Source: Bacteroidota bacterium | GTDB taxonomy: Bacteria; Bacteroidota; Ignavibacteria; UBA10030; UBA6906 | Assembly: GCA_019637975.1 (NCBI GenBank) | Contig: JAHBUR010000001.1 | Location: forward strand, 140,444-204,443 | DNA: 64,000 nt | Reading direction: 5' to 3' | Part shown: positions 35,876 to 48,051 of the stretch, piece after piece | How positions within the stretch are numbered: position 1 is the stretch's first letter | How the letters are laid out: the number at the start of each line of letters is the position of its first letter | Program-made: the position numbers and the translations under genes | The notes under the pieces: model-generated | Told to the model about the DNA's origin: nothing | Databases searched by the model: none | What the model saw: the letters and a program-made list of their open reading frames with translations, nothing else

Positions 35876-36943
35876 TTACTGAACAAGAACCGGTTCCCGC
35901 TCCAGCAGGATTCCGAATTTCTCAATGATGGCGGATTGTATTTCGTTTGCAAGCGACAGCAACTCCTTTGTTGTGCCACCATAGTTCACTAGCGCAAGCG
36001 TGTGATTCGCGGAGACACCGACGCCTCCCTTTCTGAACCCCTTCTGAAAGCCCGCCTTCTCAAGCAACCATGCCGCCGGAACCTTTACACCCTCACCCGA
36101 CGGGAAGGTAGGCGGCGAGTCGTCAATACGGTTCATTCTGCAGCGTTCCAGGAGTTGAAGGAACTTGTCCTGCGTGAGAACCGGGTTCTTGAAAAATGAA
36201 CCTGCCGATTGCGTGTTGGGATCCGCTTCATCGATAACCATTGATTTCTTTCTCCGAAGCGCAAGCACGGCACTGCGTATTGCTTCGAGCTTATCTATTC
36301 CGCCTGCGAGTTTCCCTACATCAACAGATGATGCGATAACATTCTGCAATTCTGCGTACCGGATTTCGGGCTGAACGGCAGGATCAAACCTGAACGCCAC
36401 CTCTGTTATGATGAACCTGCCGCTATCTTCTTGATTGAAGCGGCTCCTGCGATACGCGAAGTTGCACTCGCTGTTTCCGAAACGGACTGTACGCAGTGAA
36501 AAACGATCAATTGCTTTCACTTCAAAGATCGTCTCTGCCACCTCCTGCCCGTACGCCCCGACATTCTGAATCGGCGTTGCCCCGGCAAGTCCGGGGATGC
36601 CGGAGAGACATTCCACACCGGCCAACCCCGACCTGATGCAGAATCTGACGAAATCATCCCACTGCTCGCCTGCGGCAACAACAATCGTGACGCTTCCCGG
36701 CTCCCGAACGAACTGAATTCCTCTTGATGCAATTTTCAGCACAAGTCCGTCAAAGCCGTCGTCGGGAAAGATCGTGTTGCTGCCACCGCCGAGTATATGG
36801 TACCGGACCTTCTTTGACTCCGCCACATGTATTGCTGCAAGAATCTCATCGGTATTCCTGCACTCGGCAAAGTAGCGGGCATTTCCCCCGAGTTTGAAGG
36901 TGGTAAGACTGGCAAGGGGAATGTTCTCGCGGAATTCCGTCAT
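35876..36943 (-). CDS. murB: UDP-N-acetylenolpyruvoylglucosamine reductase
   Basis: 355 aa. An FAD enzyme reducing UDP-GlcNAc-enolpyruvate to UDP-MurNAc in peptidoglycan synthesis. FAD-binding half: ILGGGSNTIF and GLAGVECLSGIPGLAGATPI, QNVGAYGQEV. Type I MurB loop: FAYRRSRF with the catalytic-region Tyr/Arg. Proton-donor Ser in SAGSFFKNP; the end contains REPVLVQ with the conserved Glu. Its ATG overlaps the stop of xdhC (ATGA at 36940-36943), an unusual setting, because murB usually lies with other mur or fts genes. Confidence 0.95.
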   Translation of the reverse strand: MTEFRENIPLASLTTFKLGGNARYFAECRNTDEILAAIHVAESKKVRYHILGGGSNTIFPDDGFDGLVLKIASRGIQFVREPGSVTIVVAAGEQWDDFVRFCIRSGLAGVECLSGIPGLAGATPIQNVGAYGQEVAETIFEVKAIDRFSLRTVRFGNSECNFAYRRSRFNQEDSGRFIITEVAFRFDPAVQPEIRYAELQNVIASSVDVGKLAGGIDKLEAIRSAVLALRRKKSMVIDEADPNTQSAGSFFKNPVLTQDKFLQLLERCRMNRIDDSPPTFPSGEGVKVPAAWLLEKAGFQKGFRKGGVGVSANHTLALVNYGGTTKELLSLANEIQSAIIEKFGILLEREPVLVQ

Positions 36944-37908
36944 CCGGCAATCTGATTCTTTGTTTTGATGATCTCTGCGGCGATGCTAATAGCGATCTCC
37001 TCGGGGGTGTGGCTCTCTATTGGAATGCCGATCGGATTTCTGATGCGACGCAACTGCGCTTCGGAAATTCCCTCAGAAATCAAATCTTCAAGAATGTGTC
37101 TTGTTTTCGCGGCACTCCCCATTAACCCGACATACTGAACATTCTTGACAAGAATACTCTTCAGCGCCGCTTCGTCGGATTTGTACGCTGTTGTCACAAC
37201 TGCAACGTACTCACGGCCCGTTCCGGAGATCAACGATCCAATCTGATCATAACGGCAATGGACTTTCTCGTGAGCATAATTGTTTGAAGCGAACGTCGGT
37301 GCATCGGCTCTGTCGTCGATTATAACCACACGGAAGTCGAGCGTCACCATGATACGCGAAAGGGCAAGCCCGACATGGCCGCTTCCCACAATAAAAACCG
37401 TATCAAGAATACCAATATTTTCGTCATATTGCCACTGCTTCTCATTCGCAAAGGAGAATACCGAGTCCGGTCCTCTTCTTCTCTTGCTGTGACACGTGAA
37501 CTCCAAAGGAGTAACCGTCAGGTTTGCACAGTCGTGTTTCTCGAATGTGCGAACGATTTCGCTGACAGCCCCGAGATTCCCGGACGACAACGGTTTGAGG
37601 AGAATTGTTTGCGATCCTGAACAGATGAGACCTGAAGACTCGTGCGTTGTCTCCTTCGAATGGAACAGTTGTCGCACCGTTGGTGTCGTGTTGCCGGCTG
37701 CCAGGCGCCGCTGCGACTCTTCGATCAAGGCAAGTTCCATTACGCCGCCTCCGATGGTTCCTCGTCGATCGCCATTCGCGACAACAACCATCTTGAATCC
37801 CGCCCGACCCGGCGACGAGCCATGACTTTCAACGACGATCAAGAGCATCGCGGGAATATGATTGCTCAAGTACGTGCTGACGAATGTCCAGAATTCTTTT
37901 TCTCTCAT
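36940..37908 (-). CDS. xdhC: XdhC/CoxI-family molybdenum-cofactor insertion protein
   Basis: 322 aa. XdhC binds molybdenum cofactor, helps add its terminal sulfur, and delivers it to xanthine dehydrogenase. The N-terminal XdhC/CoxI domain contains SHGSSPGRAGFKMVVVANGD and RGTIGGGVMELALI. A C-terminal Rossmann domain (about 180-320) contains FIVGSGHVGLALSRI and VGLMGSAAKTRHILEDL. It is divergent from xdhA across about 126 bp, so both may answer to the same signal. On its own strand it is first in a train with murB and the nucleotidase. Confidence 0.92.
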   Translation of the reverse strand: MREKEFWTFVSTYLSNHIPAMLLIVVESHGSSPGRAGFKMVVVANGDRRGTIGGGVMELALIEESQRRLAAGNTTPTVRQLFHSKETTHESSGLICSGSQTILLKPLSSGNLGAVSEIVRTFEKHDCANLTVTPLEFTCHSKRRRGPDSVFSFANEKQWQYDENIGILDTVFIVGSGHVGLALSRIMVTLDFRVVIIDDRADAPTFASNNYAHEKVHCRYDQIGSLISGTGREYVAVVTTAYKSDEAALKSILVKNVQYVGLMGSAAKTRHILEDLISEGISEAQLRRIRNPIGIPIESHTPEEIAISIAAEIIKTKNQIAG

Positions 37909-38034
37909 AGTTGGTGAAAGCGCATTCGATTTGTGGCTATACGGCTATTTGATAGTAACGAGGATTTTGTTTAGTTTCCATCAGAATCTTGATGATTTCC
38001 CACCACCAACAAGGACCTTCCGTGAGGAGTGACG
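37909..38034. promoter_or_regulatory. Divergent xdhC / xdhA intergenic region
   Basis: 126 bp that must contain the promoters of both xdhC (minus) and xdhAB (plus). A weak plus-strand candidate is TTTG followed by 19 bases and TAGTAA near 37930-37958, which only partly fits Bacteroidota-type promoters. AGGAG at 38025-38029 is the xdhA ribosome-binding site. No clear operator palindrome was found. Confidence 0.35.
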
Positions 38035-39486
38035 ATGCGTTCGTCCATTTCATTTGTACTTGATGGCAAGGTTGTTACCGAGGATTTCTCAAAACCGTCC
38101 GTTACTCCCACAACAACTGTTCTGAATTACCTCCGTTCACTACCAACACATAGAGGTGTAAAAGAAGGGTGCGCTGAAGGCGACTGCGGCGCGTGTACTG
38201 TTGTCCTTGGAGAATGCGCTGCAAATAATACGATCCGCTACAAGGCGGTGGATTCGTGCCTTGTGTTCCTGCCGATGATTCACGGAAAACAACTGATTAC
38301 CGTTGAGAATCTGAAGACTGACGCCGTATTGCATCCCGTGCAACAAGCGATGGTTGACACCGGAGGCAGCCAGTGCGGCTATTGTACCCCGGGTATCGTC
38401 ATGTCGTTGTTTGCGTTGTACAAGAATCACGACCATCCTGATCGGGATGTTATTGATGACGCGCTTACGGGAAACCTCTGCCGCTGTACGGGCTACAAAC
38501 CGATTGTAGAGGCTGCAGCACGTTCCTGTGTTCATCAGGAAATTGACCCTTCGTCGAAAGACGAAAACCGAATTGCCGGATTGTTGCAAAGCATTCCGCG
38601 ACATTCCGCATACATTCAAACAGTCCATACCACATACTATCAGCCTCGCACGCTTCTTGAGGCACTCACGCTGAAGCATCAACATCCCGAAGCAATCGTC
38701 ATCGGCGGCTCAACCGATGTGGCATTGCGCGTGACAAAAAATCATGAAGAGTTGAGACAATTGCTGGATGTTTCATTAGTGGATGAACTCCATACGATTG
38801 ACAATTCTGACGGATACCCGTCGATCGGAGCGGGGGTTGTTCTCAGCGATGTTCGGCCCGCTGTCGAAGGAGAGTTTCCGGCCCTCGCCGACATGTTGAC
38901 AGTGTTTGGTTCGCTTCAAATCAAAAATCTTGCGACACTCGGGGGAAATATCGGTTCTGCATCCCCTATTGGGGATACGCTGTCGGCGCTGATGCCCTAC
39001 GATGCCCGGGTTGTGCTGGAAAGTGTATCAGGGCGACGGGAAGTGGAGTTGAACCAGTTCGTTACAGGCTACCGAAAAACCGTCCGCAAGCCTGACGAGT
39101 TGATTGTGGAGATTGTTCTTCCGAAACCAAAACACCATAGCGTTGTGAAGTGGTACAAAGTGTCCAAGCGAAAAGATCTCGATATCTCCACCGTCAGCGG
39201 GGGATTCCGAATCGACTTTGGCGAAAGGAATCGGATTCATCATGCCACGCTGGTGTTCGGAGGCATGGCTGAGCGTGTGAAGCGATCATCAACCGCCGAA
39301 GCCTTCCTGCAGGGCAAGCTCTGGACAAGGGAAACCGTCGAAGCAGCAATGCCTTTGATTGACAACGATTTCACTCCAATTTCGGATGCGCGGGGCAGCG
39401 CCGAATTTCGCCGCGTTGCAGCACGAAACCTCTTATTGAAATTCTGGGATGATACAAGAAATGGAACGAACGGTGCCGCGGCATAA
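38035..39486 (+). CDS. xdhA: Xanthine dehydrogenase, iron-sulfur/FAD subunit
   Basis: About 483 aa. ATG at 38035 has AGGAG five bases upstream; a GTG at 38029 overlaps that site. The first [2Fe-2S] domain has GCAEGDCGACTVVLG, and the second has CGYCTPGIVMSLFAL and LCRCTGYKPI. The FAD domain (about 200-370) has AIVIGGSTDVALRV and TLGGNIGSASPIGD, followed by the CO-dehydrogenase flavoprotein C-terminal domain. Together with the next gene it would oxidise hypoxanthine and xanthine to urate, passing electrons through Fe-S to FAD and NAD. It overlaps xdhB by about 38 bases. Confidence 0.96.
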   Translation: MRSSISFVLDGKVVTEDFSKPSVTPTTTVLNYLRSLPTHRGVKEGCAEGDCGACTVVLGECAANNTIRYKAVDSCLVFLPMIHGKQLITVENLKTDAVLHPVQQAMVDTGGSQCGYCTPGIVMSLFALYKNHDHPDRDVIDDALTGNLCRCTGYKPIVEAAARSCVHQEIDPSSKDENRIAGLLQSIPRHSAYIQTVHTTYYQPRTLLEALTLKHQHPEAIVIGGSTDVALRVTKNHEELRQLLDVSLVDELHTIDNSDGYPSIGAGVVLSDVRPAVEGEFPALADMLTVFGSLQIKNLATLGGNIGSASPIGDTLSALMPYDARVVLESVSGRREVELNQFVTGYRKTVRKPDELIVEIVLPKPKHHSVVKWYKVSKRKDLDISTVSGGFRIDFGERNRIHHATLVFGGMAERVKRSSTAEAFLQGKLWTRETVEAAMPLIDNDFTPISDARGSAEFRRVAARNLLLKFWDDTRNGTNGAAA

Positions 39487-41845
39487 ACACCGGCATGAAC
39501 CGGCTAACAACGTCGTGCCTCATGAATCTGCTTCGAAGCACGTCACCGGTGAAGCAGTGTACGTCGATGACATTCCTGTGAACGGACAACTCCTCGTTGG
39601 ACGAGTTGTGTATTCGCAGCATGCACATGCAAGAATCACCTCATTCGACCTTTCGGACGCACGATGTGTTCCCGGTGTTCATGCTGTACTTTCGTACAAC
39701 GATATTCCCGGACACAATCAGATGGGACCGGTCGTCAAGGATGAGGTTTGTCTTGCTGAAGGTGAAGTCATGTGCATCGGGCAAGCGATGTTTCTGATTG
39801 CAGCGGAAACAGACGAACAGGCACGCGAAGCTGAACGACTAATCCGGATTGAGTACGAACATCTTTCCACGATCCTCACCATTGACGAAGCAATTGCACA
39901 CAATAGCTTTCTCGGCCCACCCCGGACAATGCAACGAGGCAATCCTGATCACGAGATGCAAAATGCTCAACATCGCCTCAGAGGAGAACTCAGAACCGGA
40001 GCGCAAGAACATTGGTATCTCGAATCGCAGGTTTGTCTCTGCATTCCGGGTGAAGAAAAAGAGATGAACGTCTTCTCTTCAACGCAACATCCCTCTGAAA
40101 CTCAGGCGCTGATTGCCGAAGTTCTCGGCATCCCTAAAAACGAAGTGGTTGTGGAGACTCGCCGCATGGGGGGAGCATTTGGCGGAAAAGAGACTCAGGC
40201 AAACCATACCGCGTGCTGGACTGCGCTGCTGTGCAATGCAACCCGGCGTCCGGTGAAGATCCGTCTCTTCCGTGATGATGATATGAAGATGACGGGAAAG
40301 CGGCATCGGTTTCTTTCGCGGTATGAAGTTGGATTTGATGATGAAGGAAATTTGCTTGCAGTCAACATCGAGTTGAACAGCGACGGCGGCTGTGCAACGG
40401 ATCTTTCCTTCGCCATCATGGAGCGGGCAATGCTGCATGTCGACAATGCTTACTTCATTCCGAACGTCCACGTGTTAGCCCGTGTCTGCAAGACGAACCT
40501 TCCGTCCAATACCGCATTCCGGGGGTTCGGCGGCCCTCAGGGCATGGCGGTTATCGAACATATCATGGACCGAGTTGCCCGGTTCCTGCACGCAGACCCG
40601 ATTAAGATCAGGCGCAGGAATTTTTACGGCATCGATTCGCGGAATGTAACGCATTACGGCCAGACGGTTGAACACAACCGGCTTCACATCATATACGAGC
40701 AACTCGTAACCTCGTCGGAATATTATGAGCGCAGAAAGACAATTGCCGCGTTCAACTCTTCTAGCGAGTTTGCGAAGAAAGGCATTGCCCTGACTCCGGT
40801 GAAGTTTGGAATCTCCTTCACAACAACGTTTCTCAATCAAGCGGGGGCACTTGTCAACATCTATAAGGACGGAACAATCCTGGTCAACCATGGCGGCACA
40901 GAAATGGGACAAGGGCTGCACACAAAAATGCAGCAAGTCGCCGCCGCCGAGTTCGGAGTCAGCCTTGACAACGTGAAAGTGAGCGCTACCAACACGTCGA
41001 AAGTACCGAACACGTCTGCAACAGCCGCCTCGGCAGGAACTGATCTGAACGGCATGGCAGTGAAGAATGCAGTCGATACGTTGAAATCCCGCATTGCGGA
41101 GTCGCTAGCGCAATATTGGTCAGAGCAGAACCCCGATACTCCAACGTCGCCGCATTCTGTATGTTTTGAGAATGATTTGATATTCGATAGCGAACACCCT
41201 GCCCGACGGATTTCGTTCGCCGATGCAATGCCGTTGATGAACCTCCGCCAAGTGAGTCTGAGTGCAACGGGCTTTTACAGAACGCCGAACATCGGGTGGG
41301 AGAAGCAGAAAGGGTTGGGAAAGCCATTCCACTACTACGCGTTTGGAATGGCGTGCACTGAGGTGCTGGTTGACACGCTCACCGGCCACCACACGATTTT
41401 GCGAACAGACATTCTGCACGATGTTGGCGATTCCCTCAACCCGCAAATCGATCTTGGCCAGGTGGAAGGCGGATACATTCAAGGAAACGGCTGGGTGACA
41501 ACGGAGGAAATCAAGTGGGACGACAAGGGTATCCTGCTGACTCATTCGCCTGATACGTACAAGATTCCTTCAGTACGGGATATTCCGAAGGACTTCAGGG
41601 TTCATTTGCTTCAGAACGTCCCCAATCCGAACACGATCCGCAAAAGCAAAGCGGTTGCCGAGCCGCCGTTCATGCTGGCGCTTTCAACATGGCTGGCGAT
41701 CAAGGATGCTGTCTCGGCAGTCGGTCATCACAAGTTCGAACCTGAGTTTTCGCTGCCTGCGACCAACGAAGTAATTGTGCTTGCAACCGAGAATCTGAAG
41801 AGAAGATTGCGGGAGACCTCGCCCGCCGAAGTGCCTCTACGTTAG
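39449..41845 (+). CDS. xdhB: Xanthine dehydrogenase, molybdopterin-binding subunit
   Basis: 798 aa. Molybdenum-cofactor subunit: GGAFGGKETQAN (about 240), the substrate-pocket Glu in KMTGKRHRFLSRYEVGF, and the substrate Arg in LPSNTAFRGFGGPQGMAVIE. Also present are GQGLHTKMQQVAA, DVGDSLNPQIDLGQVEGGYI, and the catalytic Glu in AEPPFMLALS. The Glu and Arg match true xanthine dehydrogenases, not aldehyde oxidases, so xanthine/hypoxanthine is the probable substrate. The start is uncertain between ATG at 39449 and ATG at 39461, neither with a strong ribosome-binding site; translation is likely coupled to xdhA. Confidence 0.96.
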   Translation: MIQEMERTVPRHKHRHEPANNVVPHESASKHVTGEAVYVDDIPVNGQLLVGRVVYSQHAHARITSFDLSDARCVPGVHAVLSYNDIPGHNQMGPVVKDEVCLAEGEVMCIGQAMFLIAAETDEQAREAERLIRIEYEHLSTILTIDEAIAHNSFLGPPRTMQRGNPDHEMQNAQHRLRGELRTGAQEHWYLESQVCLCIPGEEKEMNVFSSTQHPSETQALIAEVLGIPKNEVVVETRRMGGAFGGKETQANHTACWTALLCNATRRPVKIRLFRDDDMKMTGKRHRFLSRYEVGFDDEGNLLAVNIELNSDGGCATDLSFAIMERAMLHVDNAYFIPNVHVLARVCKTNLPSNTAFRGFGGPQGMAVIEHIMDRVARFLHADPIKIRRRNFYGIDSRNVTHYGQTVEHNRLHIIYEQLVTSSEYYERRKTIAAFNSSSEFAKKGIALTPVKFGISFTTTFLNQAGALVNIYKDGTILVNHGGTEMGQGLHTKMQQVAAAEFGVSLDNVKVSATNTSKVPNTSATAASAGTDLNGMAVKNAVDTLKSRIAESLAQYWSEQNPDTPTSPHSVCFENDLIFDSEHPARRISFADAMPLMNLRQVSLSATGFYRTPNIGWEKQKGLGKPFHYYAFGMACTEVLVDTLTGHHTILRTDILHDVGDSLNPQIDLGQVEGGYIQGNGWVTTEEIKWDDKGILLTHSPDTYKIPSVRDIPKDFRVHLLQNVPNPNTIRKSKAVAEPPFMLALSTWLAIKDAVSAVGHHKFEPEFSLPATNEVIVLATENLKRRLRETSPAEVPLR

Positions 41846-41862: not shown

Positions 41863-42207
41863 TCAACTCCCCCGATATGTCGAGTACCCGAACGGACTCA
41901 AGAGCAAGGGCACGTGGTAGTGACCTCCATTTTTTACTGCAAACTCCACAACAACTCTCGTGTAGAAACTATCCCGATTCATGAGTCTAAAATACTCCGC
42001 GGTAAGGAACGTAATCCGGTAGATTCCGACGGCAAGATGAAAATCTTCGGGCAGCAAATCGGCAACCCGGCCATCGCTATTTGAGACGCCGCGGCCGAGT
42101 TCATTCCATGCACCATCCACCTGCTTCATCTCCAACACGACCGGAATGCCTTCTGCGGGCCTTCCGAGTGCAGTATCAAGAATATGGGTTGTGACAGGAC
42201 TCCTCAT
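41863..42207 (-). CDS. uraH: 5-hydroxyisourate hydrolase (transthyretin-like)
   Basis: 114 aa. Hydrolyses 5-hydroxyisourate, the first product of urate oxidation, to OHCU. Family marks are THILDTALGRPAEGIPVVL at the start, SDGRVADLL in the middle and the hallmark C-terminus FGYSTYRGS. AGGAG five bases upstream fixes ATG at 42207, which overlaps the stop of the SGNH hydrolase gene (42204-42207). It is last in the minus-strand ureide train and convergent with xdhB (17-bp gap). Confidence 0.96.
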   Translation of the reverse strand: MRSPVTTHILDTALGRPAEGIPVVLEMKQVDGAWNELGRGVSNSDGRVADLLPEDFHLAVGIYRITFLTAEYFRLMNRDSFYTRVVVEFAVKNGGHYHVPLLLSPFGYSTYRGS

Positions 42208-42920
42208 TTCTTCTCCTTTTCTATCGCAATACCGAGAGCTGTGCATGCCTTCGGTTCGATGAGTTCCCCCCAATACTTGTATTGAACACCTGAAGGATGA
42301 AGTCCGTCGGACGCGATAAGTTCAGGATACCGTTCAACTTCACGTGAGAGTGGAGTAATGTCAACGTATTGAACTCCCGCCCGAACGGATTCTTCCCAAT
42401 TTATAGCATTAAACATGTCTATCTCTTTCGCAATCTTCATTCGATCTCTTCCTTCAGCAAACGGCATTACGCCCCAGTCGGGAATCGACACCACAACAAC
42501 ATGTGATGCCTCGCCGTTTGCGAACCGTATTGCACGTTGCAGCAGTTGTTTAAATTCACCCCGATACTCATCCGCACTTCTGCCACGATATTGATTGTTG
42601 ACGCCGATAAGCAACGTAACAAGATCGAACGGCCCGCGGGAGTCACTTGTATCAATTGCAGCGCTCAACTCGTCCGTCGTCCAACCCGTACGGGCAACAA
42701 TCACCGGGTCGGCAATGGAAACATTTCGCTTCCTGAGACTTGAAACGAGTTGCACGGGCCAGCGTTCGGTTTCTGCAACTGCTTCACCGATTGTGTATGA
42801 ATCGCCGAGGGCGAGAAATGTTCGGGTCTGATGGTTCATTGAATTCCGCTCGTTGTCATTTTGGGAGAATGCAAGTGAACTGAGTGCTGAGAGAATGCCA
42901 AGGCAAGCGATGAAGCTCAT
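42204..42920 (-). CDS. SGNH/GDSL-family hydrolase
   Basis: 238 aa. The N-terminal segment ([20 protein letters not shown]) looks like a signal peptide. SGNH blocks are [12 protein letters not shown] with nucleophile Ser, [11 protein letters not shown] with the oxyanion Asn, and [11 protein letters not shown] with the Asp and His. The fold hydrolyses esters or acetyl groups. It is embedded between the TrpF-like gene and uraH with 4-base stop/start overlaps on both sides, so it is transcribed with ureide catabolism. If exported, it could release a substrate outside the cytoplasm; its natural substrate is unknown. Confidence 0.88.
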
Positions 42921-43582
42921 TGTACCTCATTGAAGAATGCAGCGAGCTTGCTTTCATCGAGTACGCCATCCGTTCGGACACCGCTGCACAGATCGACGGC
43001 AAACGGGCGAACTTCTCTTATTGCCTCGGCGACATTCTCAGCTTTCAAGCCACCCGCGAGATAAACTGGTATTCTCACCGATTCCACAATCTGTTTGCTG
43101 AGATTCCAATCGTGTGTGCGGCCCGTACCGCCGAGTTCTTTCACAGGAAGAGATTGATTCCCTGAGTCCAACAGGATTGCATCCACAAATTCCGACACCG
43201 CTATCGCTTCAACAATGGATTCCTCTCCCGTTACATGCACGACTTGCACGAGCCCGATGCCGGGCAATTCCCTCCGGAGTTCTTGATATACATGAACGGA
43301 AATCCTGTCAACCAACTGCAGGGTATTCGTCCGGCAGCGCCGGTGTTGCTTGATGATCGAATCAGCGTCCTGCTTCGATGTCAGCAAAAATGAAGCTACG
43401 CCGGGCGGAATCACAGCGGCTATGTCGGCGATCAATTCCTCGGGGATGGGGCCGGGGCCGCTCGGCATCGCAGACACGAGTCCCAACGCTGATGCCCCGT
43501 AACGGATGGCAAGCCGGGCTTCCTCAATACTGCTGATACAGCAGATCTTGACTCTTGTTTTCATCCTGTCACCTGTTGACAT
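42917..43582 (-). CDS. TrpF-like (phosphoribosylanthranilate isomerase family) barrel protein
   Basis: 221 aa, a TIM barrel. It keeps the catalytic-type Cys at the end of strand 1 ([20 protein letters not shown]) and Asp in AILLDSG, followed by [22 protein letters not shown] and [13 protein letters not shown]. By homology it should isomerise phosphoribosylanthranilate in tryptophan synthesis. However, no other trp gene is near, and it overlaps the SGNH gene by 4 bases inside a ureide-degradation train. Either the trp genes are scattered in this genome, or this copy has another role. The start at 43582 has GGAGG four bases upstream; a second ATG lies six codons in. Confidence 0.82.
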
Positions 43583-43656: not shown

Positions 43657-45102
43657 CTATGCCGTTCTTCTCCCATCTAATATCCTGAGAAACGACCTGC
43701 TGCGCAGCTCTTCAAGCGTCAAGCCGGTAGCCGATGCTTCTTCCTCGGTGATTGCCCTGCAACTCATCCCGCGCAAGAAATAATTCAACAACCCTTGCCC
43801 CGTCGCTGCATCATCAAATACATCGCCGATGAGCGTGGCCTGCGCTGCTTTTTCCATGAACGATCTGAGTCTCAATGTTGCAAGATCGAGCCCTTCGAGG
43901 AAGAACGCATACACCGCCGCGTAGCGAACACACAACTGCGCCGGATGCAGATCCCATCCCTGATAGAAACCGTGCTTCAGTGAGTGCATTGTATCATCGA
44001 ACGCATGTTTCCAGGCACGATGAACAGCCGCGTTATTCTCGGCAAGTTGTCGTGCCGATAGCTTCTTCCCCTTCGCTGCACGATGCGGCCCGACAGGCAT
44101 GATGTTCGTTGCGCCGTCGGAGATGTTGATACCGGTCTGGGCAAGCGCCACTTTCATTATGTGACGGGCAAAGTCGCACGCAGGGTGGCGCATGGATTGG
44201 TGTGCTGCCGTGATTTCGCAGAGCGCCGTGTAATCGTACACGCCGAAATGCATCCCGACAATTCGACCCTTACCGGCGAGGGCAAGCAACGGAATGTGAG
44301 ATTCGCCGTTCGCATTGAAGATGGACTGAGGCGTTTCAATCATCAACTCCAACCTCAAAGAACCGGAATCGAGGCCGGTTGTGCGTTCAAGAATATTGCA
44401 AAGTTCGACAACAGCCGTAACGTGTTGCGGAATAGTGACTTTCGGAATCGTGATAACGAAGTGTGCGGGAAGTATGCCACCGGTTTCTGCGAGAAGGGTC
44501 GTGACAAAAATATTCGTCGTCCGGAGGCTGCGCGCTTTTAGTTCCTCCGTCATCGGCTTAATGCGTATGCCGATGAACGGAGGGAGGGTTCGCTCACGCA
44601 TGCCGCGTGCAACTTCCTTTGCAGTGAACGCGGCATGGCTATCTTCCTCGTTGTCAAGGCGATTACCGTAGCCATCCTCAAAATCAATCCTGAAATCTTC
44701 AACAGGTTCAGATTTCAGTTTTTCAATGATGCGGTTGTAGATGGTGAATGCAAGCCAGGCAGCGCGGCGTTGTGTTTTTGCCATGGCGGAATTTCTCTTG
44801 AGCATGCCGGTGAGTGCTGCAATGTGCCTTGCAGATTTCGGAAATGACTCAAAGCCCGGCAACTGAATCGCCCGGGCAAACGCAACAAAATCCGGAGCAT
44901 TCTCAAGAAAAGCACGCAACCCGACTTCGCCCAACTTTTTTGCCGTGTCCGACTTGAAGATTTGCGCACCGCCGTACACGGTGTGAACCGGTTGGCGTAA
45001 CCCCGTATCGCCGGGATACCGCGCAGCAAACGCATAGTTTGCTTCACGAAGGTTGGAGAGAATGTCGTCAGCCTCAATGAGGCGCTGTTCGTGTGATTGC
45101 AT
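43657..45102 (-). CDS. DUF6986-type HpcH/HpaI aldolase-fold protein
   Basis: 481 aa. The chain belongs to the aldolase/citrate lyase/malate synthase-like TIM-barrel group. A metal-binding-type acidic loop (DFRIDFEDGYGNRLDNEEDS) and a second motif MIETPQSIFNANGE are visible, then GRIVGMHFGVYDYTALCEI and GWDLHPAQLCVRYAAVYAFF. I believe the family is DUF6986, sometimes found in purine-degradation clusters. The substrate is not established as far as I know. The partner could be glyoxylate, the end product of this pathway, because related barrels (malate synthase, citryl-CoA lyases) work on 2-oxo acids; this is inference. It lies 35 bp downstream of uraD and 74 bp upstream of the TrpF-like gene. 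Confidence 0.8.
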   Translation of the reverse strand: MQSHEQRLIEADDILSNLREANYAFAARYPGDTGLRQPVHTVYGGAQIFKSDTAKKLGEVGLRAFLENAPDFVAFARAIQLPGFESFPKSARHIAALTGMLKRNSAMAKTQRRAAWLAFTIYNRIIEKLKSEPVEDFRIDFEDGYGNRLDNEEDSHAAFTAKEVARGMRERTLPPFIGIRIKPMTEELKARSLRTTNIFVTTLLAETGGILPAHFVITIPKVTIPQHVTAVVELCNILERTTGLDSGSLRLELMIETPQSIFNANGESHIPLLALAGKGRIVGMHFGVYDYTALCEITAAHQSMRHPACDFARHIMKVALAQTGINISDGATNIMPVGPHRAAKGKKLSARQLAENNAAVHRAWKHAFDDTMHSLKHGFYQGWDLHPAQLCVRYAAVYAFFLEGLDLATLRLRSFMEKAAQATLIGDVFDDAATGQGLLNYFLRGMSCRAITEEEASATGLTLEELRSRSFLRILDGRRTA

Positions 45103-45137: not shown

Positions 45138-45650
45138 TTACGATTCAACCGAGAACAGTTTTTGTAACCGGAGCCTCGTGATGCTTGCCTGTTCGGAGGC
45201 AGCAATCAGAATTTCCTTATCAGGAGGATTGGACATTCGACGATTGAGAATTGCCAGCATTTCATTTGCAGATTTCCCTGTTGCGCAAACGATGAAGATA
45301 TAGCCAAACTTCACTTCGTATTGTTGATTTCCATCAGCTAAACTCCTGAGAATGTTCTCGCTCGCTGTCGCAACGCTGGCTTGTTCACTTGAGGCCCAGC
45401 GTGCAGTAGACGAGAGTTGTTTTTGCAGGCTCGTCACGTCGCCGATCTTCGGATGACGGGCAAATGCTTCCTTCCAATCCGATTCTGAGAGACTCTGCCA
45501 AATCTCATCTGCAGCGGCAAGCACTTGATCCTGCGTCGAAAAGGGGCGGCATTCAGCCATTTGCTTCACCCAACGGGTTGAGCCGCAGCAACGGCGAAGT
45601 TCGTCCATTGCTGTCGCAGTACTGAGACTGTTCAATTCTCGCAGAGTCAT
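45138..45650 (-). CDS. uraD: OHCU decarboxylase
   Basis: 170 aa. Converts 2-oxo-4-hydroxy-4-carboxy-5-ureidoimidazoline to S-allantoin. The catalytic His lies in the family signature FARHPKIGD. The substrate-binding segment ends KFGYIFIVCATGKSANEMLAILNRRM shortly before the C-terminus (here split as FGYIFIVCATGKSA and MLAILNRRM). It begins 7 bases after the allantoicase stop. With uraH it makes the HIU to allantoin branch complete. Confidence 0.95.
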   Translation of the reverse strand: MTLRELNSLSTATAMDELRRCCGSTRWVKQMAECRPFSTQDQVLAAADEIWQSLSESDWKEAFARHPKIGDVTSLQKQLSSTARWASSEQASVATASENILRSLADGNQQYEVKFGYIFIVCATGKSANEMLAILNRRMSNPPDKEILIAASEQASITRLRLQKLFSVES

Positions 45651-45657
45651 GCTTCAG

Positions 45658-46680
45658 TCATTCGGAAGCAAGATATCCCAACACTCGCATTCTGCTGACG
45701 CCGCCATCAGGATAGACATTCAGCCGAACATGCGTACAACGGTCAACCGGCTTCAATTCCTTTTCGAAGAGATGCTGCGTATCCGCGTGCAACCCGGTTT
45801 GAGGAAGAATCTCCTTCCATTGAAATTGATGCCAACTCAATGCATCAACCGTTGAACCAGGGGCACTCAATGCATCGATGGAGCAACTGTCGGGATAGTT
45901 ACCTTTGAAATGGCCGGTATCCACCTCGATCCTTTGAATTCTCCCTAATGCGCCCAGTTGAAGAATAGCCCAATCGTGACCAAGGCCGCGACGGCGCTTT
46001 GTTTCCCAGCCGTCTCCCATATTGACTGCCCGTCCTGGCATGATAAGATTTTCCTTGTTGCCGAAAAACATATCGCTTGCAGCTACAACTTTTCCGCCTG
46101 AGCCGATGTATGCAAGGTCAATCAGTCCCTCTTGCTTCAAGCTATTCCAATCAGGAACAACATTTCCATAAATTCTCAGCCGTGCGACACCGCCGTCGGG
46201 AAAAATGTTGAGACGAACATGAGTCCACACCATCTGGTCTGCAACTGAAAAAAGATTCTGGGTACCGGGGCGTAGTGGCGACTTCGGTAAAATTACAGAC
46301 CATTGTGTTTCGGGTCCCGGCAACGGGCCGTTCGATGCATCGCCTATGATGCTGCATGCTTCAATTGACGCATAGGCGGGATTGTTTCCGAGAAAATGAT
46401 TCGTGTCGATATCGACGCCTTTGATAATCCCGCTAAATCCAAGCTTGACAATACACCAGTCATGCCCCGGGGTACGCTTTCGACGTGATTCCCACCCGTC
46501 CATCCATTTGCCGCGATCGGTGTACTTGTCCGGAATAAAAATCCCGCGACCGGGCTTCAGAAGGTTTTCCTTTTCGGCGAAGAACTCATCACTCGCGATG
46601 AGAGCCTTGCCGCCCAATCGCTCGGAAGCAAGATCGGTAAAGCCGGAGAAAGCGGCTGCGGTTTCATTCTCTGAAGACAT
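45658..46680 (-). CDS. alc: Allantoicase
   Basis: 340 aa. Hydrolyses allantoate to ureidoglycolate and urea. Two tandem jelly-roll allantoicase repeats are visible: residues about 15-165 (DLASERLGGKALIASDEFFA, GWESRRKRTPGHDWCIVKLG, VDIDTNHFLGNNP) and 185-335 (DLAYIGSGGKVVAASDMFFG, GWETKRRRGLGHDWAILQLG, VDTGHFKGNYP). Length is normal. It follows allantoinase by about 36 bp and precedes uraD by 7 bases. The released urea implies urease or export elsewhere in the genome. Confidence 0.95.
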   Translation of the reverse strand: MSSENETAAAFSGFTDLASERLGGKALIASDEFFAEKENLLKPGRGIFIPDKYTDRGKWMDGWESRRKRTPGHDWCIVKLGFSGIIKGVDIDTNHFLGNNPAYASIEACSIIGDASNGPLPGPETQWSVILPKSPLRPGTQNLFSVADQMVWTHVRLNIFPDGGVARLRIYGNVVPDWNSLKQEGLIDLAYIGSGGKVVAASDMFFGNKENLIMPGRAVNMGDGWETKRRRGLGHDWAILQLGALGRIQRIEVDTGHFKGNYPDSCSIDALSAPGSTVDALSWHQFQWKEILPQTGLHADTQHLFEKELKPVDRCTHVRLNVYPDGGVSRMRVLGYLASE

Positions 46681-46716: not shown

Positions 46717-48051
46717 CTATGCGTTACGTGAAAGAACTCTGCCAGCCGCTACTGAAAATCTCCCCTCTTCAAATACTTTGGTACCCCGAACGTATGTTGC
46801 CAGCACGTTGCCGTACAAGGTTCGTCCCTCGTACGGAGTTACTTTGTGACGGTGATGAAGTAACGAGGGCCCGACAGAAAATGATTCATCCGGATTCCAT
46901 ACAACAAAATCGGCATCATACCCCGGTGCGATTCTGCCTTTCCTGCCTTCAAGCCCGACGAGTGTTGCCGGATTTGCCGACATCAACCTGCTAATATCAG
47001 AAATCGAAAATCCTCTTCCACGCATTTCCGTCCACATAATTGAAAGGCCGAATTGAAGGGATGCTATTCCACCCCATGCCTTCATGAAATCGCCAGCTTC
47101 CATCACCTTCATTGCGGGAGGACAAGGCGAATGATCCGATGCAATGAAATCTATGACGCCTTCACGCAACGCCTCCCAGAGTTTGTCGTTGTTCTCCATC
47201 TCGCGAATAGGCGGAGCACATTTGAACTGCGTAGCTCCCTCAGGAATCTCCTCTGCAGAGAATGTGAGATAATGGGGACACGTTTCCGCTGTTATCTTCA
47301 CGCCACATGATTTCGCTTCCCGCAACACGGGAACAACTTCTGATGAAGATAAGTGAACAATGTGTACTCTGCAACCGATTTCTTCGGAAAGGCGAATCAA
47401 CATGGAAATGGCATCATTCTCCCAACGCTTTGGTCGGGAATTGAGATATGCGGCGTAACTTCGTGAATGCCGAGGCGCAGCTTGAAGAGGCAAAGTCTGC
47501 AACTCTGCATGAACAAGAAGTGGCAAGCCGGCCTTTGCTATTACCGGCATTGCGGCGCGTAGGTTCTCTTCCGATGTCGGAGGGAATTCATCAATCCCCG
47601 AATCGATAAGAAAGGTCTTTACTCCAAGCACGCCCGATCCCGCCAAAGACTCCATCAACGACGCATTGCCGGGGACAAGTCCTCCGTGAAATCCGCAATC
47701 TACATGCAACTTTCCTTGGGCAGCGCTCAATTTCCTTTCAAGAGCATCGACCGTTGTCGTAACCGGAGAGCTATTTAACGGCATGTCAACAAGCGTGGTT
47801 ATTCCCCCCGCGGCAGCGGCTCTTGTTGCGCTTTCAAATCCTTCCCATTCAGTCCGTCCGGGCTCGTTAATGTGAACGTGAGGATCAACAAGTCCGGGAG
47901 CAACAACCACATCACTAACATCTTTGACATCGGCACCGGAAGGGATTTCGCCCGGATTGATGATATCGCTAATTCTGCCGTCATTCACGATGATTGCGGC
48001 ATCGCGCATACCATCAGGAGTGATAATGCGCCGGGACCGTAAGATGAACAT
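46717..48051 (-). CDS. allB: Allantoinase
   Basis: 444 aa, a cyclic amidohydrolase opening allantoin to allantoate. The binuclear metal site is visible in GLVDPHVHINEPGRTEWEGF (HxH), the later histidines in LLVHAEL, VHIVHLSS and AETCPHYLTFS, and the catalytic Asp in FIASDHSPCPPAMK. It is first in the minus-strand train allB, alc, uraD, DUF6986, TrpF-like, SGNH, uraH, so the operon promoter should lie in the 94 bp upstream. The ribosome-binding site is weak. Confidence 0.96.
   Translation of the reverse strand: MFILRSRRIITPDGMRDAAIIVNDGRISDIINPGEIPSGADVKDVSDVVVAPGLVDPHVHINEPGRTEWEGFESATRAAAAGGITTLVDMPLNSSPVTTTVDALERKLSAAQGKLHVDCGFHGGLVPGNASLMESLAGSGVLGVKTFLIDSGIDEFPPTSEENLRAAMPVIAKAGLPLLVHAELQTLPLQAAPRHSRSYAAYLNSRPKRWENDAISMLIRLSEEIGCRVHIVHLSSSEVVPVLREAKSCGVKITAETCPHYLTFSAEEIPEGATQFKCAPPIREMENNDKLWEALREGVIDFIASDHSPCPPAMKVMEAGDFMKAWGGIASLQFGLSIMWTEMRGRGFSISDISRLMSANPATLVGLEGRKGRIAPGYDADFVVWNPDESFSVGPSLLHHRHKVTPYEGRTLYGNVLATYVRGTKVFEEGRFSVAAGRVLSRNA

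Follow-up and report, generated by a model that had tools for sequence, protein, structure and literature searches.

What does a protein with the fold of phosphoribosylanthranilate isomerase (PRAI, TrpF) do among genes of purine degradation? The question is raised by a single open reading frame of the window, that is, the whole stretch of 64,000 nucleotides analysed here, where a complete purine-to-ureide cluster surrounds the TrpF-like gene (Table 1). On the minus strand, the genes run from 5′ to 3′ in the order allB, allantoicase, uraD, DUF6986, TrpF-like, SGNH and uraH, whereas xdhA/xdhB lie on the plus strand and are convergent to them. An earlier note on this DNA had drawn attention to the motifs KICCIS and LLDSG, to an overlap of four bases with the SGNH gene and to the company of uraD, uraH and allantoinase, all of which were found again, together with an allantoicase and a DUF6986 gene that it did not mention. 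From this it had derived two possibilities: a paralogue that isomerises a phosphoribosyl or ureido intermediate, or a cell with simply scattered trp genes.

Table 1. Features of the TrpF-like locus, with positions in the window
Feature	Position	Strand	Evidence
TrpF-like (PRAI-fold) protein, 'KICC/MPSGPG' subfamily	42917..43582	-	221 aa; PF00697 71.3 bits
SGNH/GDSL hydrolase	42204..42920	-	PF13472 81.5 bits
uraH, hydroxyisourate hydrolase	41863..42273	-	TIGR02962 129.8 bits (cut-off 87.45)
DUF6986 protein, distant HpcH/HpaI relative	43657..45102	-	PF22484 585.7 bits
uraD, OHCU decarboxylase	45138..45650	-	TIGR03180 182.7 bits (cut-off 139.4)
allantoicase	45658..46680	-	TIGR02961 440.6 bits (cut-off 277.9)
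allB, allantoinase	46717..48051	-	TIGR03178 579.1 bits (cut-off 357.85)
xdhA, xanthine dehydrogenase small subunit	38029..39486	+	TIGR02963 540.8 bits (cut-off 467)
xdhB, xanthine dehydrogenase molybdopterin subunit	39449..41845	+	TIGR02965 1072.8 bits (cut-off 849.5)
XdhC-like maturation factor	36940..37908	-	PF13478 121.7 bits

The TrpF-like reading frame has an ATG start, with two in-frame ATGs (M1 and M7) as candidates, and the four bases that it has in common with the SGNH/GDSL reading frame (42204-42920) are 42917-42920. Comparison with a copy from the same genus gives a dN/dS of 0.065 (0.045/0.698), which indicates that the gene is real and under selection. In a Pfam scan (E ≤ 0.001) the protein matched only PF00697, the PRAI family, which covers its full length at 71.3 bits against a curated cut-off of 22.7, whereas the 13 NCBIfam TrpF models that match it all stay below their cut-offs (best, 128.3 bits vs 215). 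The PDB sequences matching the protein are PRAIs or TrpC-TrpF fusions only. An AlphaFold2 model built from a 34-row alignment also predicts a PRAI barrel (mean pLDDT 90.5), whose best structural match in the PDB is 1nsj (Z 27.3, rmsd 1.9 Å, 202 residues aligned). The top eleven rows of this comparison are all PRAIs or TrpC-TrpF fusions, followed by MJ1099 at Z 20.0, and non-PRAI barrels score Z 20 and lower; RpiA and RpiB are absent among the best 50 rows, an absence that excludes nothing. The gene is real and under selection, and its product belongs to a TrpF-fold subfamily of its own.

Such a gene could be a true TrpF that simply happens to be placed outside a trp operon. The PRAI fold with its catalytic Cys and Asp would agree with this, as would the fact that no other PF00697 match occurs in the window's genome (4.25 Mb, 98.65% complete), a count that the earlier note had regarded, together with restored tryptophan synthesis, as adverse to a special role. 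However, this genome holds no pathway to restore: no match was found in it for trpC, trpA or trpB, and for trpD only a partial one, at 34.5 bits vs a cut-off of 199. The TrpF-like gene is therefore not a scattered trp gene, and that suggestion has to be abandoned, whereas the idea of a TrpF-fold protein acting outside tryptophan synthesis proved right. Among the 34 genomes of the phylum that carry a subfamily copy, trpC is listed for 28 and not for six (G000, G055, G097, G176, G228 and G267). PF00697 proteins were counted in 12 of these carriers, seven with trpC and five without. The seven with trpC all hold a further PF00697 protein that outscores the subfamily copy, and this further PRAI adjoins trpC in G004, G019 and G255; in the five without trpC the subfamily protein is alone in four, and G228 has a second PF00697 protein. 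At the G228 locus (L047; no trpC match) a TrpB-like protein, which at 158 bits falls below the trpB cut-off, is encoded two genes from the TrpF-like one. In view of the absent pathway, the co-resident PRAIs, the sub-threshold TrpF models and the residue changes described below, a displaced but genuine TrpF is very improbable, and the gene is not a tryptophan gene.

The phylum-wide search, over 296 genomes, points in the same direction. Its 34 subfamily copies match at no less than 52% identity (E ≤ 1.7e-62) and are, in a 34-row alignment, 51-91% identical to the window protein, and the next match falls to 33% identity (E 2.7e-25), a bimodal distribution; the other PRAIs listed in this sample share at most 37% identity with the subfamily. 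In a tree of 79 rows, made with a quick method, the 42 subfamily rows lie on one side of a branch with an SH-aLRT of 99, although the root is not fixed and long branches meet there, a third group of five rows being the neighbour. A phylogeny relative to canonical TrpF, as proposed in the earlier note, hence places the copy on a branch of its own, in an unrooted tree. The third PRAI-fold group (L065-L069), from one family of the same class, forms its own clade and keeps the Asp and a QLHG motif, with the catalytic Cys replaced by Ala in all five.

Beyond the phylum, a scan of GTDB genomes gave at least 592 matching stretches and at least 569 confirmed loci, 80 of which were kept; among the groups represented are Acidobacteriota, Verrucomicrobiota, Planctomycetota, Cyanobacteriota, Myxococcota, Chloroflexota, Pseudomonadota, Cloacimonadota and archaeal bins. 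In a Pseudomonadota sample, the gene is carried by three of 398 genomes, one of them the chosen centre of the sample. Phyla are intermixed within the subfamily clade, where for instance a Heimdallarchaeota copy groups with a Cloacimonadota copy, and some copies reside on plasmids of Acaryochloris, Sphingomonas and Sphingobium. Judging by these sequence comparisons, the subfamily is sharply separate from canonical TrpF and widely shared across phyla. In the plasmid collection, 1808 records match at E 1e-5, mostly from Escherichia and Klebsiella at less than 60% identity, perhaps through a trpF fragment such as that beside blaNDM. No close phage match to the protein was found, the one IMG/VR contig (54% identity) being possibly cellular. 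Aidingimonas halophila (G300) has two subfamily copies (L226 and L227), and one match contains an in-frame TAG. Apparent domain fusions at L064, L121, L127, L136 and L145 were discarded, as the long upstream extensions of these reading frames look, by eye, like open-frame read-through.

In TrpF, Cys7 is the base and Asp126 the acid of the reaction, and glycine-rich loops of the kind found in this fold bind phosphate. Alignment of 114 subfamily rows (seven of them repeats of the same locus) with 32 other PRAIs, mostly from this phylum, pairs C14 of the window protein with T. maritima Cys7 and D139 with Asp126, residues kept in 99% and 100% of the subfamily rows, respectively; the glycine-rich stretches 151-154 and 177-178 are also retained. 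The remainder of the pocket has diverged: the Arg36 position is Gly (Gly44) in 100% of the subfamily rows and Arg in 31 of the 32 other PRAIs, whereas the Glu184 position is Arg (Arg203) in 99% and Glu in 32/32. In addition, Gly8 is replaced by Cys (99%), Gly84 by Asp and Phe139 by His (100% each), and His83 is lost. A simulation study of PRA-bound TrpF, in which Asp126 is named as catalytic, describes a salt bridge between Arg36 and Glu184 and a shielding of the anthranilate carboxylate by Arg36 (PMC9088769). In the subfamily, the two residues of this bridge have changed in concert; the acid-base pair appears to be intact and the aglycone pocket to be rebuilt. Arg203 might replace Arg36, and PRA isomerase activity would thus be possible as far as the residues go.

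The position of the gene among allB, allantoicase, uraD and uraH could also indicate a purine-ureide enzyme, such as an allantoin racemase or a substitute for the missing ureidoglycolate lyase, and the ureidoglycolate lyase AllA (PF04115) is indeed absent from the window's genome. However, of the seven genomes with allantoicase in the phylum sample of 296, none has AllA and only two carry the TrpF-like gene, so that this gene is not a general substitute for AllA. Within the phylum sample of 34 carriers, the gene lies in a purine cluster only in the window and in its sister species (G055); the other 32 carriers have no allantoicase, and at their loci none of ten other cluster genes was found at E 1e-5. 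In the five allantoicase genomes that are not carriers, allB, allantoicase, uraD, uraH, DUF6986 and xdhA/xdhB are grouped, the TrpF-like and SGNH genes are absent from all five clusters, and the phylum-wide search found no subfamily gene elsewhere in these genomes. A ureide step is therefore unlikely and was rejected as the role of the subfamily; that the protein is a general purine-ureide enzyme seems far-fetched, all the more so as DUF6986 is present in every one of the allantoicase clusters. Consequently, the ureido half of the intermediate proposed in the earlier note loses its footing, whereas the phosphoribosyl half gains some support from the nucleoside-degradation contexts of other phyla described below. 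Within open-licence PMC text, no paper was found on a PRAI-fold protein in an allantoin context (title or abstract start).

The DUF6986 family (PF22484) deserves a comment of its own, since it is found in 7/7 allantoicase clusters (43657-45102 in the window; L032 and L195-L199) and PF04115 in 0/7 of the genomes; it might supply the ureidoglycolate or glyoxylate step that is missing, and no paper naming it was found in open-licence PMC text.

In the five other clusters uraH adjoins DUF6986, and here the TrpF-like and SGNH genes lie between them, so that the pair looks like a two-gene insert. Such an insertion could have been neutral, with no metabolic role in this context, but the strong purifying selection on the TrpF-like gene and the occurrence of this gene order in the sister species as well make this improbable, and it would in any case say nothing about the activity of the enzyme itself. 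The SGNH gene was rejected as a conserved partner, as it was not seen beside other subfamily copies.

Across the subfamily, the neighbourhoods of the gene are heterogeneous. Leaving out seven duplicate loci, neither the clustering of neighbours at 113 loci nor the Pfam tallies of 96 adjacent genes revealed a conserved operon partner. Most of the adjoining genes are unrelated ones (GNAT, EamA, sigma factor, peptidases, DNase IV), the commonest family being GNAT acetyltransferases (8/96), in part from similar neighbourhoods within one bacterial family. In three Cloacimonadota loci, a DNase IV (nfo) homologue follows directly downstream with a 4-base overlap or a gap of a few bases, recognised by family model at L135 and by homology at L124 and L146. 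The lack of a conserved neighbour across phyla, the mixing of phyla in the tree, the plasmid copies and the DNase IV genes would all fit an accessory or repair isomerase that is bound to no particular pathway, which would use Amadori chemistry on a phosphoribosyl-amine (glycation-type) or another damaged phosphopentose and would have spread as a stand-alone gene.

Against this, five loci in other phyla are nucleoside-degradation clusters. In Pelagibius (L138), two ABC permease genes are followed by a cdd-like gene, purine nucleoside phosphorylase, deoC, deoA, deoB, PhyH, add, the TrpF-like gene and a 5′-nucleotidase, the last three being tightly coupled. At L102 the gene accompanies Bmp, an ABC permease, a purine nucleoside phosphorylase homologue, deoC and deoA; at L151, a pyrimidine nucleoside phosphorylase and a nucleoside transporter, which follow it in that order; at L122, a xanthine/uracil-type permease, deoC, an aldehyde dehydrogenase, ribokinase and nucleoside hydrolases; and at L103 it is tightly coupled to deoC and a nucleoside-deoxyribosyltransferase-like gene. 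Genes of E. coli K-12, used as queries, brought the cases beyond L103 and L138 to light. The PhyH-type dioxygenase of Pelagibius (PF05721; L138:6119-7027) sits inside that cluster, between deoB and add. No paper tying PRAI to deoxyribose-phosphate aldolase and a nucleoside context was found in open-licence PMC text (title or abstract start).

The frequency of such contexts was estimated in 108 loci (the window's genus and L227, a repeat of L105, left out), using 26 nucleoside/nucleobase queries and 61 others. The background consisted of 76 regions chosen arbitrarily in carrier genomes, 1.51 Mb in all, which gave 380 windows for the 1.5-kb comparison. Within 1.5 kb, the density of nucleoside genes is 29.2/Mb vs 2.6/Mb in the background, and that of the control genes 42.1 vs 36.4. 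One or more nucleoside genes are found at this distance in 6/108 loci vs 4/380 windows (p 0.010), and two or more in 3/108 vs 0/380 (p 0.011), for a category picked post hoc, after L103 and L138 had been seen; without these two discovery loci, the figures are 4/106 vs 4/380 (p 0.073). Within 5 kb, the corresponding values are 7/108 vs 1/76 (p 0.088) for at least one gene and 5/108 vs 0/76 (p 0.067) for at least two. The background regions (1.51 Mb) contain no deo, udp, rih or cdd genes, and 101 of the 108 loci have no nucleoside gene within 5 kb. On a 109-row tree, the seven rows with nucleoside or purine contexts, window's genus included, need six changes, three of them forced by well-supported branches, so that a single inherited event does not seem to explain the association. 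This enrichment, which would suggest a definite metabolic route for some members of the subfamily, leaves the accessory or repair isomerase as an unlikely reading, albeit one that deserves serious weight.

The explanation that we favour as the most economical one, tentatively and with somewhat less than even confidence, is that the subfamily would be a phosphopentose isomerase with the TrpF fold and acid-base pair, whose substrate would not be phosphoribosylanthranilate and which would perhaps serve nucleoside or nucleobase catabolism. A 5-phosphorylated pentose would be held by the retained phosphate loops, Asp139 would protonate the ring oxygen and open the ring, and Cys14 would then move the C2 proton, converting an aldose, or its C1-substituted form, into a ketose. 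With the anthranilate site apparently gone, the C1 group of the substrate would have to differ. That the sugar may come from nucleoside or nucleobase breakdown is suggested, more weakly, by at least five independent loci in deo-type clusters and by the purine-degradation cluster of the window. Of the two branches of nucleoside degradation, that of deoxyribose ends at DeoC and that of ribose needs an aldose-ketose isomerase, which makes ribose 5-phosphate the simplest candidate substrate. Ribose 1,5-bisphosphate, whose known isomerase likewise relies on a Cys/Asp pair (PMC5789824), or another C1-substituted phosphoribose would be the alternative candidate, and Arg203 could hold a second anion such as that of ribose 1,5-bisphosphate. 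Two further points count against this explanation: bacteria normally have RpiA/RpiB, and purine-cluster genes accompany the gene in the window's genus only, within the phylum sample.

A bolder proposal, which we regard as rather doubtful, is that of an unrecognised and widely transferred class of ribose-phosphate isomerases on the TrpF barrel, channelling nucleoside-derived ribose 5-phosphate or 1,5-bisphosphate to a ketose. If true, this would be an evolutionary invention independent of RpiA, RpiB and the eIF2B-type enzyme, and one that the public records examined list as a tryptophan enzyme. The three carriers with database annotation that were examined are all labelled phosphoribosylanthranilate isomerase, so that tryptophan prototrophy inferred from a 'trpF' match would be wrong in genomes such as that of the window. 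The subfamily combines a seemingly intact acid-base pair with a rebuilt aglycone pocket, counts at least 569 loci in GTDB and recurrently has nucleoside-cluster neighbours, which makes it a tractable target for enzyme discovery.

Among known systems, TrpF itself (PF00697; T. maritima 1nsj/1lbm) is the closest, with the same fold over the full length (Z 27.3 for the predicted model), the catalytic Cys7/Asp126 and the glycine-rich loops. The subfamily protein differs from it by Arg36 to Gly, Glu184 to Arg, Gly8 to Cys, the loss of His83 and Gly84, an extra Met in loop 2, a separate clade and a host without the Trp pathway. The HisA/PriA phosphoribosyl isomerases combine the same type of barrel with Amadori-type chemistry, but as structural matches they are much weaker than PRAI (HisAP/PriA rows at Z about 18 and 13-16% identity); in open-licence PMC text, the papers found on TrpF-like proteins or TrpF paralogues concern HisA/PriA. 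Ribose-1,5-bisphosphate isomerase, of the eIF2B family, is described in two reports as using a catalytic Cys/Asp pair to convert a phosphopentose into a ketose in nucleoside catabolism (PMC5789824, PMC9700705). The TrpF-like protein shares such a pair with it and belongs to an unrelated family, matching PF00697 alone. Finally, AdeK, which is a paralogue of PriA, offers an earlier example of a phosphoribosyl isomerase relative that has taken on a different function (PMC13055916). Unlike the TrpF-like protein, it is a member of the HisA/PriA family from Actinomycetota and has been recruited to specialised metabolism.
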